A DNA stretch of 43,582 nt from Opitutaceae bacterium (GTDB lineage: Bacteria > Verrucomicrobiota > Verrucomicrobiia > Opitutales > Opitutaceae), in contig JAPKDW010000005.1 of assembly GCA_028822375.1 (NCBI GenBank), positions 1 to 43,582 on the forward strand. The letters run 5' to 3'. The notes under the pieces are model-generated. The model made no database searches. It was given only the letters and a program-made list of their open reading frames with translations, and had not been told where the DNA came from. Position 1 is the stretch's first letter. The number at the start of each line of letters is the position of its first letter. The translations under genes and the position numbers were made by a program. Positions 2,241 to 6,613 of this stretch are shown in pieces.

Positions 2241-3164
2241 TTATTGGGACTGGGCAACGAGTGTATCGTTGCTGAGAGTGAAGGCTTCGATTCGCAGAGA
2301 GGCAGTGCCGATGGAAATCTTAAAATCGATTCGGAGAGGGATGCGTCGCTCGTCGGCTGAAACCCAAAGGGACATTTTACCGCCTTCGCGGAAGAGTTTG
2401 CTTTGAGGCAGGGCCAAAATGGGTTCCAGTTTAAAGGCGTCGAGTTTTCCAAATTTCGTTTGGATAGATTCGGTTTTCATCGTTTGCATTTCGATGAGAT
2501 AGAATTTCCCTTTTGAGCTAATCAAAAAGGAATGACGGCTATCCTGGGCGAGGTTCCAGCCGCGGACTTGAAGGAGGGCGGATGCGTAGTCCAGTGGTAC
2601 GGGATAGGGAAGGCTCTTGGTGGTATTTCGGTCGGGGCGTGTTTCGTCTACGAGGCTCATATTGCCAGCTTCGTAGTCGAAAGTGGTTTTGACGTCTGTT
2701 TCTCTCGAGCGACTGATTTCGGTGACGCGGCTATTGAGGATGCGTCCTTTTTGGGGTTGGAGAAGGGTTTGCCCTTCGAAGAGAATAGGAAAAAGCGCTT
2801 TTGCCAAACCCAGCGTTCGGACATTGGTTTTCACGAGGAGCAGGGCGTCGTCAGTTTCGGTCGCTTGGATGGAGATTGTGAGTCTGGCGGCTTTGCGCAG
2901 CAGGCCCCATTGACCTCGGAATTGGAATTTTTCTCCGGATTTGAATCCACTTGCGGTTTCAGCGGGGTCGGGAACGTCTCTTTCGGGCCAAACGATTTCT
3001 TGCGATTGAGTGGACCCGTCGTCGTCTCGTATTTCTGACAAATTGATTTTCGCTGCTACGGTTGGAGCGATGACAGCCCACAGTAGAATGAACGAGCAGC
3101 AGGCACGCCCATATTTTGGCGAGTGATTGAAGCGGGGGGTATTATGGGAAACAAGAGGCATCAT
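2241..3164 (-). CDS. DUF3108 domain-containing exported protein
   Basis: About 307 aa. The N-terminus has a basic stretch followed by a hydrophobic segment (CCSFILLWAVIAPTVAA), which fits a signal peptide or membrane anchor, so the rest is probably periplasmic. The body matches the DUF3108 pattern: an opening strand GEKFQFRGQWGLLRKAARLTI, a central FDYEAG strand, and a closing block LWVSADERRIPLRIDF. The fold is beta-rich. DUF3108 proteins have no firmly assigned activity, so none is claimed. The start could be either ATG of the MM pair (3164/3161) or TTG 3209, which lies 11 nt after the fusion gene's stop. It sits between the exonuclease/ligase fusion and the PfkB kinase on the same strand and is probably cotranscribed with them. 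Confidence 0.78.
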   Translation of the reverse strand: MMPLVSHNTPRFNHSPKYGRACCSFILLWAVIAPTVAAKINLSEIRDDDGSTQSQEIVWPERDVPDPAETASGFKSGEKFQFRGQWGLLRKAARLTISIQATETDDALLLVKTNVRTLGLAKALFPILFEGQTLLQPQKGRILNSRVTEISRSRETDVKTTFDYEAGNMSLVDETRPDRNTTKSLPYPVPLDYASALLQVRGWNLAQDSRHSFLISSKGKFYLIEMQTMKTESIQTKFGKLDAFKLEPILALPQSKLFREGGKMSLWVSADERRIPLRIDFKISIGTASLRIEAFTLSNDTLVAQSQ

Positions 3165-3219
3165 TCGTGATAATCGACGAGCATTGGCGTGAATGGAGCC
3201 GAGAATCAAGCCTTGAAGG

Positions 3220-5925
3220 TTACTTGAAGGAGATCCAACCGGATTTCGAATCCGACAGCGGATTGTAAGGGGAGGTTTCTTTTTTGATTATCAAGCCTTG
3301 GTTGCCCCGCTTTTGCGAATCTTGTAGTTGACCGTGGATTTGATCGATTGAGTCGAGATGAGTGACAGGCGAAATACGAAGTTTCGGGTTCACTGAGAAG
3401 GAATATAGACGGCTTTTGCGTTCTGAAAGCGGTTGATCGACAAGGGTATCGCCATTGTTCCAGAGCAAGTCGTGAAGCCAGAGCAGCGTATCGGCTTCGT
3501 CGCTCAACAGAAGTTCCGCCGCGGGACGTTCGAGTCGTTCGCGCAGCTTCGAATAGGGTAGCGGGGCTTCTTTTTCCCAGGCGACGAGTGTTCCATCGGC
3601 GATAAAATCTTGGGGAATAAGCGTAGCGGCTTCGGTTATTTCGGGAAATTTGTGAGTGATGGAATTCCCTTGGGCGTCGTACATTTCGACACGTTCATCG
3701 AGTTTGTGGATTTGGCAGCGGAATCCGTCGTATAGGTCTTCGACCCAGAGCGGCGCTTCGAGAGTTGAGAGGTATTCAAGGTCGATCTGCCCTCGGCTGG
3801 AAGTGACTAATGAGAGGGGGAAGAAGAGCTGGATCGGGATGTATTCGAGCATGTTGTCCAGAGCTGCATTCGCTATGCGTTCGAGATCGGAGCAACGAAA
3901 ATTGGCCTGTCGGACCGTATCTAAAGGACAATTGAATCGGAGGGCCAGGGCTTCTTCGATGATCGACTCGGTGACGTTTGTCTTTAAATCGCCTGCGATT
4001 AACCGGCTTAGATATTTGCCTTCGACGGGTGCGAGTTTTCGGTATTCGTCGGCGAGGACAGAGTGTTGGTATACCGGGTTGGGCCCTTTTTCTAAGAGAG
4101 CGAAAGTCGATCTGAAATGGCCTAAGGTCCGGCCGCCTGCTTGGGATTCGGATAGAAGGGAAGCGAGGGCGGTCTGTGGATCCGGGTTTTCCTGCTTACG
4201 ATCCTTGAAGTCGGCTTCGCTGGAATCCGAGGCGAAGAGAATGGCTTGCTTGTTTAACTTTCCGTCTACTCGGATATTGCGTCGCGATGCTCTTGGAAAA
4301 ATCTGACCGGCGAGGAAAAGGCTGGCGGTGGCGATCTCCGTTGCCGGGAGGCTTGAGAGGTACTGCGCGATGATTTCTGCCTGTTTGCTTCGGCTTTCAG
4401 TTTTCGAGAGAGCTTCGCAGGTGTTTGCAAAATGAAGAATGGCGTCGCCGCTAGGAGTTTTAGTGGAAGGGGAGTGAGTAGAAGGAGTGGTTTTCGGCTT
4501 CGGTCGAGTGACGGCAGGGATACCGAGACCCATTTGATTTTGACTTCCTAGGGCCCAGGCGGCTATTCCGCGATCATTGAGAGTTTCGGCGAATTCTTTG
4601 GCGAAGCCATGGGTTGTGTAGACGATTTTAGGAGAGACTTGTTCGACGAAGTCTTGAAGGTCCAGGAAATCGGCGTGGTCTGAAAGCGGAAACGATCGAT
4701 CGGCCTGGTTTCGATATTGAGCGGATGGATCGATGGCCCAACCCGATATCATTGCTGTTTTCCGGTTCGGGATTTTGGATAACCAGTCCGAATTTGCTGC
4801 AAGAGGAGGGCTGATGATAACGCGGCCATGATGGCTCGGGAAATCGAATTCGGAATAGGAGGGGAAATCGAAACCGATTTTTTCGCACGCTTGGGTCATT
4901 TTGAAAACCTGCGGATGAACCATGATTTCGAGCTTGGCTCCAGAAAGCGCTTTCAGAATCTCCTGGGCTTTGCCGAGGCTGTAGCCGAAAAGAATAGGCG
5001 TTTCGCCGTTCTCGAGCGTGTCTCTACAAAAACTGATGATGTCTTGAATGACCTCGGAAGCTGGAGGGAACGTGTATCGAGGAATTCCGTACGTGGTTTC
5101 GATTACGAGCGTGTCGGCTTGAGGAACGACACAGGCTTCGGCAGCGAGGTTTGGACTGAGCTTGAAGTCGCCCGAATAGAGAAACGTTTTTCCTTCTCGC
5201 TCCAGCCAAAGCATCGCGGATCCAGGAATATGGCCAGCTGGGTAAAGGCGGGCATTGGTTCCTGGCTCGATCTCGAATGGTTCGTCAAAATCGAAGGTTT
5301 GCCAATCGCGTTGGCCTGGCATTCGAGCTTGAAGCAACTGAGCCGTGCCTTGAGAGCAGAGGATGGAAGCGTGCTTACCGAAGTGGTCAAAGTGAGCGTG
5401 GGAAATGAATGCCCTGGGAACGGGCTTTCGGGCATCGAGATGCCAGTCGATTTCCGGGAGATAGATCCCATTTCGCTTCTCGACTTTCCAAGTCATTGCG
5501 AGTCTCAAGATCCCTTTACGATCGAGGCTGATCCGTCCTGGACCGATGAATACAAGGGAGAGCAATGCTAGGCCGATTTGAAAATGGACGAGGAGGGAAA
5601 GATCGACTCCCTTGCTATGTTGTATCAGATTCGCGATAGCGAAACCCGTGATAATCGTCAATAGGAGCGCGATACTGCGGGTTAGGATGCCGAGAATGAG
5701 AAACAGTCCTCCAACCGATTGGATAACTGCGGATGCTGCTCCAAAAAACAGGTGAAACCCAGTGATGCCGATTAAGCCAACGGGGCCGCCAACTTTTTCA
5801 TAGCTGTCAGTTCCGCTGACAAGCAGCGGAAAACCATGGAAGGCCATAAGCGCTCCCGTCCCTAGACGGAGATAGAGCACTCCTAAATAATCGAATTTAC
5901 TTAAACCTGCGAGCGATAGCTTCAT
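3220..5925 (-). CDS. DoxX / beta-CASP exonuclease / degenerate ATP-dependent DNA ligase fusion
   Basis: One uninterrupted 901-codon frame with three modules. Residues 1-140 are a DoxX-type domain with about four membrane helices, ending in the typical GPGRISLDRKG. Residues about 144-470 are a metallo-beta-lactamase/beta-CASP nuclease of the ligase-associated exonuclease type, with metal ligands HAHFDH (176-181), GH (231-232), SGD (251-253), SDHADF (415-420) and THG (438-440), all intact. A Pro/Thr/Ser-rich linker (about 472-492) leads to a ligase DNA-binding domain and a nucleotidyltransferase domain. There, motif I KxDG reads LYDG (Leu731 for Lys), motif III DGE reads DGT (779) and motif IV EG reads QG (876). 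The chain stops at GWISFK, before any OB fold. The nuclease is predicted active and the ligase dead. An internal ATG (residue 144, position 5496) could give a separate soluble product, but AAGGGA lies too far upstream to be convincing. Confidence 0.85.
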   Translation of the reverse strand: MKLSLAGLSKFDYLGVLYLRLGTGALMAFHGFPLLVSGTDSYEKVGGPVGLIGITGFHLFFGAASAVIQSVGGLFLILGILTRSIALLLTIITGFAIANLIQHSKGVDLSLLVHFQIGLALLSLVFIGPGRISLDRKGILRLAMTWKVEKRNGIYLPEIDWHLDARKPVPRAFISHAHFDHFGKHASILCSQGTAQLLQARMPGQRDWQTFDFDEPFEIEPGTNARLYPAGHIPGSAMLWLEREGKTFLYSGDFKLSPNLAAEACVVPQADTLVIETTYGIPRYTFPPASEVIQDIISFCRDTLENGETPILFGYSLGKAQEILKALSGAKLEIMVHPQVFKMTQACEKIGFDFPSYSEFDFPSHHGRVIISPPLAANSDWLSKIPNRKTAMISGWAIDPSAQYRNQADRSFPLSDHADFLDLQDFVEQVSPKIVYTTHGFAKEFAETLNDRGIAAWALGSQNQMGLGIPAVTRPKPKTTPSTHSPSTKTPSGDAILHFANTCEALSKTESRSKQAEIIAQYLSSLPATEIATASLFLAGQIFPRASRRNIRVDGKLNKQAILFASDSSEADFKDRKQENPDPQTALASLLSESQAGGRTLGHFRSTFALLEKGPNPVYQHSVLADEYRKLAPVEGKYLSRLIAGDLKTNVTESIIEEALALRFNCPLDTVRQANFRCSDLERIANAALDNMLEYIPIQLFFPLSLVTSSRGQIDLEYLSTLEAPLWVEDLYDGFRCQIHKLDERVEMYDAQGNSITHKFPEITEAATLIPQDFIADGTLVAWEKEAPLPYSKLRERLERPAAELLLSDEADTLLWLHDLLWNNGDTLVDQPLSERKSRLYSFSVNPKLRISPVTHLDSIDQIHGQLQDSQKRGNQGLIIKKETSPYNPLSDSKSGWISFK

Positions 5926-6007: not shown

Positions 6008-6613
6008 CTATTTAGAGCTCGGCAGCCAGCCTTTGGCCACGGCATCGCGGATTAGGCTATCGGTGTAAGTCCAAAGCGAAGCGCTGCCATCTTCGATTTT
6101 GCGATTGACGGCCCGTACTTGTTCGGCGGTGACTTCGTGCTCGCCCCAAGTTTTGCCTTCGGCGAGGTGATTGAGTATCATAGGGTGCAGGCGATCGACT
6201 GCTTTGGCGAATCGAGCTTCATCGGAGGCTTCGGTTTCGAAATCGATCCATAGATCGTGGAAGGCTTGGGATTGATCGCCTGGGAGTAGGCCAAAGAGGC
6301 GATCGGCCGCCTTGGCTTCGCGTTGGGCTTGGGTCTTTTTGGCTTCCTCGTCGTAAATGTAAGTGTCGCCTGCATCGATTTCGACAATGTCGTGAATGAT
6401 GAGCATCTTGAGGACTTTGAGCGTATCGAGATCCTTGAAGTTCGAATGTTCGGCGAGCAGCAGAACCATCAGGCAAAGGTGCCATGAGTGCTCGGCGTCG
6501 TTTTCGCGACGCGATTGATCGCTGAGATAGGATTGACGAAAGACATGCTTCAGCTTGTCGGCTTCGGCGATGAAGCGCATTTGCTGCTGAAGGCGTTCCG
6601 AGATCGATTCCAT
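6008..6613 (-). CDS. HD-domain hydrolase, YfbR/HDDC2-like 5'-deoxynucleotidase
   Basis: 201 aa with a complete HD metal-binding signature: RRENDAEHSWH (first His), MLIIHDIVEIDAGD (HD pair and following acidic turn) and FAKAVDRLHPMILN (final Asp). The E-N-D-A-E-H-S-W block and AGD turn are typical of the YfbR/HDDC2 group, which dephosphorylates deoxynucleoside 5'-monophosphates. Substrate specificity is inferred from the family. The start ATG is 5 nt from the stop of dtd, so the two are almost certainly cotranscribed, forming a small nucleotide and tRNA quality-control pair. The fusion nuclease gene starts 82 nt further downstream on the same strand. Confidence 0.85.
   Translation of the reverse strand: MESISERLQQQMRFIAEADKLKHVFRQSYLSDQSRRENDAEHSWHLCLMVLLLAEHSNFKDLDTLKVLKMLIIHDIVEIDAGDTYIYDEEAKKTQAQREAKAADRLFGLLPGDQSQAFHDLWIDFETEASDEARFAKAVDRLHPMILNHLAEGKTWGEHEVTAEQVRAVNRKIEDGSASLWTYTDSLIRDAVAKGWLPSSK

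Follow-up and report, generated by a model that had tools for sequence, protein, structure and literature searches.

A beta-CASP nuclease fused to an eroded DNA ligase in the Opitutaceae, and a missing stop codon that joins DoxX to it in one assembly

The closest described counterparts of the protein considered here are fusions of a metallonuclease to the DNA ligase LigB. Thirteen Dry Valley sequences of this kind have been described (PMC10140301), and that paper credits Ejaz and Shuman (2018) with the earlier identification of metallonuclease-LigB fusions in Opitutus terrae. A second point of comparison is human Artemis, a fragment of which was solved in complex with the catalytic region of LigIV (PMC3664939). 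The locus analyzed here lies in a window of 43,582 nucleotides, meaning the whole stretch of DNA that was analyzed, from an Opitutaceae bacterium (contig JAPKDW010000005.1 of assembly GCA_028822375.1).

The minus strand of the window contains a complete ORF of 901 amino acids without an internal stop (3220-5925). A sequence-only reading had described this frame as a DoxX membrane domain, a beta-CASP nuclease and a ligase-like region in one polypeptide, and the frame is present exactly so, open throughout. Of its interpretation, the nuclease-ligase fusion stands, while the DoxX tether as an architecture and the functional ligase module do not. Pfam places DoxX at residues 15-97, and the doxX gene body occupies residues 1-139 (5509-5925, minus), ending in SLDRKGI like its relatives. 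The MBL/beta-CASP nuclease domain, with intact metal-ligand motifs, spans residues 144-463 (4537-5496, minus); the metallo-beta-lactamase fold begins at about residue 164 (Pfam), and an RMMBL match at residues 412-449 is slightly below the Pfam cut-off. The NCBIfam model for the ligase-associated exonuclease, TIGR04122, matches residues 150-460 at 227.8 bits, which is below its curated cut-off of 325 bits, as are the scores of two intact fusions (212.9 and 220.6 bits). A variable linker of low model confidence follows (4435-4536, minus), as judged from the dN/dS comparison and the predicted structure. The ligase-like region consists of a DNA_ligase_A_N match at residues 498-661 (3943-4434, minus) and an eroded adenylation domain matching DNA_ligase_A_M at residues 720-901 (3223-3768, minus), whose C-terminus is motif V, with no OB fold beyond it (Pfam).

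Searches covered 57 related genomes and then 373 genomes of the order, and every DoxX-nuclease junction was read. The sequence-only reading had proposed that DoxX tethers the nuclease to the membrane, that conservation of the join be checked in relatives, and that separate genes with a stop between them would speak against it. That is what the relatives contain: in 20 of the 20 other genomes with an adjoining pair, DoxX is closed by a stop ahead of the nuclease start, and in none is the frame open across the join. In the g1 loci, the group to which the window genome (G000) belongs, DoxX ends in GPGR.SLDR.G[IV] and then a stop, which is TAG in G002, G003, G004, G006, G007, G009 and G010, TGA in G001 and TAA in G005. 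A stop also separates the two genes in genus g20 (G029, G356, G367, G369, G377, G379), in G022 and in the more distant pairs of G331, G348, G248 and G135. The junction in the window, GGG ATC TTG AGA CTC GCA ATG, is equal in length to that of G002, GGG ATC TAG CGC CCC GCG ATG, whose protein is 83% identical to the window's. Comparison of the junctions thus places the loss of the stop at codon 140 (5506-5508, minus), where the window has TTG and the relatives a stop, mostly TAG; it is a single A-to-T change in the second codon position, at base 5507. The junction alignment further shows that the ATG at residue 144 (5494-5496, minus), the start of the nuclease gene at 5496, is conserved among the relatives. 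When the junction was scanned for promoters and terminators, no terminator and a single weak promoter-like site on the plus strand came up, a yield no better than chance.

The locus is therefore best read as doxX followed by a separate nuclease-pseudoligase gene that begins at 5496, the two being joined by a missing stop in one assembly. A DoxX fusion as a conserved architecture is ruled out by the junctions of the 20 genomes, a membrane tether of the nuclease is not supported beyond the window assembly, and what would have been a false membrane-tethered nuclease is struck from the list. The TTG reflects an error in the assembly or else a mutation private to this genome. If the mutation is real, this strain would make the 901-residue membrane-tethered DoxX-nuclease-pseudoligase protein of the sequence-only reading, since no stop interrupts the frame in this assembly and the nuclease start is in frame with the site of the DoxX stop. 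This is unlikely, given that no other genome has such a frame and that the retained ATG could serve the nuclease alone. Alternatively, the conserved TAG might be leaky, so that low-level read-through makes a DoxX-nuclease fusion throughout the genus. Most g1 pairs are indeed in frame, with gaps of 6-9 nt and mostly TAG, but the stop is TGA in G001 (gap of 5 nt) and TAA in both G022 (gap of 17 nt) and G005, while the gaps in g20 are 37-451 nt, with neither frame nor stop codon conserved, and G018 retains DoxX without an adjoining nuclease. Among the 20 genomes the gaps range from 5 to 451 nt and at least 7 pairs are out of frame, so there is no sign of selected read-through. Because stop codon, gap and frame all differ between genomes, programmed TAG read-through is unsupported, and a leaky stop is highly improbable.

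The joining of the nuclease to the ligase-like module is of a different kind. This fusion is real, conserved in the family and already published for O. terrae; the sequence-only reading was correct in placing both parts in one polypeptide. In an alignment of the family's 34 fusion loci, with frames judged over the available sequence, internal stops occur only in G007, and two further loci run off contig ends. Elsewhere in the family, many genomes encode the nuclease by itself. The gene order in G013, G014, G016 and G023 is like that of O. terrae, with a helicase gene and a phosphoesterase gene after the fusion. Long open frames had hinted at fusions in other families of the order, but in five of the six loci checked a stop divides the nuclease frame from that of an active ligase, and the sixth, in G056, has no recognizable ligase motif I.

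The two halves of the fusion differ in their active sites. The nuclease metal-ligand motifs (HxHxDH, AGH, GDF, the E and H columns, SDH and TxHG) are conserved in all 34 fusions, and by its MBL and beta-CASP motifs the window protein is a predicted beta-CASP nuclease. The ligase half was taken at face value in the sequence-only reading, but it lacks the motif I lysine, the motif III and IV glutamates and the OB fold. Motif I is E[ED]K[YF]DGIR in intact relatives and EDLYDGFR in the window, with leucine instead of the catalytic lysine at residue 731 (3733-3735, minus). Motif III, DGTLV, and motif IV, QGLIIK, are both without glutamate, with threonine at residue 779 (3589-3591, minus) and glutamine at residue 876 (3298-3300, minus). 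In the alignment columns, all 22 intact proteins have the motif I lysine and none of the 11 eroded ones does; the counts for the motif III glutamate are again 22 of 22 and 0 of 11, and those for the motif IV glutamate 20 of 20 and 0 of 11. The OB-fold domain PF04679 has no match in the window protein, G000 or the other g1 genomes searched, and is found in G022, G356 and G379. With Leu, Thr and Gln at motifs I, III and IV and no OB fold, the window protein does not have the features of an active LigB-type ATP-dependent DNA ligase, and its ligase part is, judging from these residues, catalytically dead. Other residues are identical in intact and eroded forms, namely E586, G591, R593, W640, D676, G734 and K738 (numbering of the 758-residue protein). 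It has also been considered that the eroded domain might bind ATP non-covalently and serve the nuclease as a nucleotide sensor. In favor of this, Glu and Arg of motif I and Asp of motif IIIa are retained, but most eroded forms have lost the glutamates of motifs III and IV and the first lysine of motif V, and this function is quite improbable.

Eight g1 genomes in the tree have the eroded form, as do four of the six g20 genomes, while the ligase part is intact in G356 and G379 of g20 and in G022. A tree of the nuclease domain only places the eroded forms in two separate groups, requiring two changes, and rejects a single clade (AU p=0.0037). When nuclease and ligase columns are combined, with the eroded columns included, one origin is not rejected (AU p=0.455). 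The nuclease tree is trusted over the whole-protein tree because it excludes the columns of the trait itself, and a single origin of the dead ligase is accordingly rejected on the nuclease columns and not on those of the whole protein. Based on this evidence, erosion of the ligase apparently happened twice in the family.

Despite the loss of its catalytic residues, the adenylation domain is under selective constraint and its predicted fold is retained. The NG86 dN/dS values of the eroded adenylation domain and the nuclease are 0.12 vs 0.29 for G010/G003, 0.04 vs 0.07 for G000/G002, 0.11 vs 0.09 for G000/G006 and 0.23 vs 0.24 for G367/G369, and are rough because dS is near saturation in G000/G002 and G000/G006 and small in G010/G003, with one value at dS 2.4. 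Within that precision, the adenylation domain (0.04-0.23 in the four degenerate pairs) evolves no faster than about the rate of the nuclease. When change without constraint was simulated at 0.25 substitutions per site, the 421 codons acquired 9 stops on average and no run was stop-free. The AlphaFold model has a mean pLDDT of 87.6 and a pTM of 0.54, so the relative placement of the domains is uncertain, and the best Foldseek matches are archaeal ATP-dependent DNA ligases over about 425 columns. The ligase half could instead be a passive relic on its way out, inert, with only the nuclease of importance. The many family genomes with the nuclease alone agree with this, as do the faster evolution of the DNA-binding domain than the nuclease in some pairs and the broken copies of two g1 genomes, G005 (a deletion) and G007 (several stops), which make the gene dispensable. 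However, low dN/dS and open frames persist in seven g1 and four g20 copies. Moreover, the nuclease part is damaged as well in both broken copies, which argues that whole genes decay, and the relic explanation is rather unlikely.

The surroundings of the gene do not form the four-gene repair operon, as no helicase and phosphoesterase genes lie alongside in the window. Profile searches of G000 found no second PF01068 ATP-dependent ligase, no TIGR04123 phosphoesterase and no ligase-type TIGR04121 helicase, the sole match to the last being a generic DEAD-box protein of 452 amino acids; these absences are not absolute because the assembly has 457 contigs and a completeness of 93%. Some g1 relatives encode a long Lhr of about 1470 amino acids elsewhere in the genome. 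Upstream of doxX is a gene with an HD_3 domain (6011-6613, minus), and after the nuclease is a DUF3108 gene (2244-3209, minus); similar flanks were seen by eye in G002 and G022. In G005 (L034, L035), a complete and separate canonical nuclease-ligase-helicase-phosphoesterase operon is present elsewhere in addition to the broken copy of the window locus, which suggests replacement by gene transfer. A gene for a methylpurine-DNA glycosylase is only a few genes away from the nuclease-ligase gene in G013 (L036 388-1011), G006 (L033 5058-5594) and G022 (L039 3272-3823), in all three of which PF02245 was confirmed, and by eye in G005 (L034 6715-7248). It is not at the corresponding place in the window or in G002.

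Overall, the locus is probably best explained by a split between doxX and a nuclease-pseudoligase gene, the latter presumably descended from the fused nuclease-ligase of the Lhr/ligase repair operon. The ligase half would have lost its adenylation residues and OB fold in g1 and, separately, in part of g20. The predicted beta-CASP domain would continue to cut DNA, while the DNA-binding and adenylation core of the ligase may now only hold a DNA end or nick for the nuclease, so that the protein would not ligate. The more specific proposal, that a nuclease-fused ligase became a pseudoenzyme twice in this one family, on both occasions with loss of the same three catalytic residues and the entire OB fold, and was retained to position DNA for a beta-CASP nuclease, has about an even chance of being correct. 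Sister lineages that carry an intact or a dead ligase on the same nuclease constitute a testable natural experiment. Comparing them could reveal what the ligase usefully contributes to this repair operon, which is poorly understood: the sealing of DNA or the holding of it.

As described in PMC10140301, O. terrae OTER_RS15935 and the Dry Valley LigB-nuclease fusions resemble the window protein in that an MBL/beta-CASP nuclease precedes the LigB DNA-binding and adenylation domains. In contrast to those fusions, the window protein has neither the catalytic Lys and Glu residues nor an OB fold, and no helicase or phosphoesterase gene adjoins its own. The nuclease and ligase-like parts are likewise homologous to two members of the ligase-associated DNA damage response operon (TIGR04120 ligase, TIGR04121 helicase, TIGR04122 exonuclease, TIGR04123 PdeM), namely TIGR04122 and TIGR04120, but G000 yielded only one gene of the set, and the ligase part of that gene is predicted to be inactive. 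Among proteins of solved structure, human SNM1A matches the sequence of the nuclease part best; like Artemis, it is a beta-CASP DNA nuclease, as the window's nuclease part would be. The pairing of human Artemis with DNA ligase IV offers an analogy only: there the nuclease and an active ligase are separate proteins, whereas in the window the two are fused and the ligase appears to be inactive.
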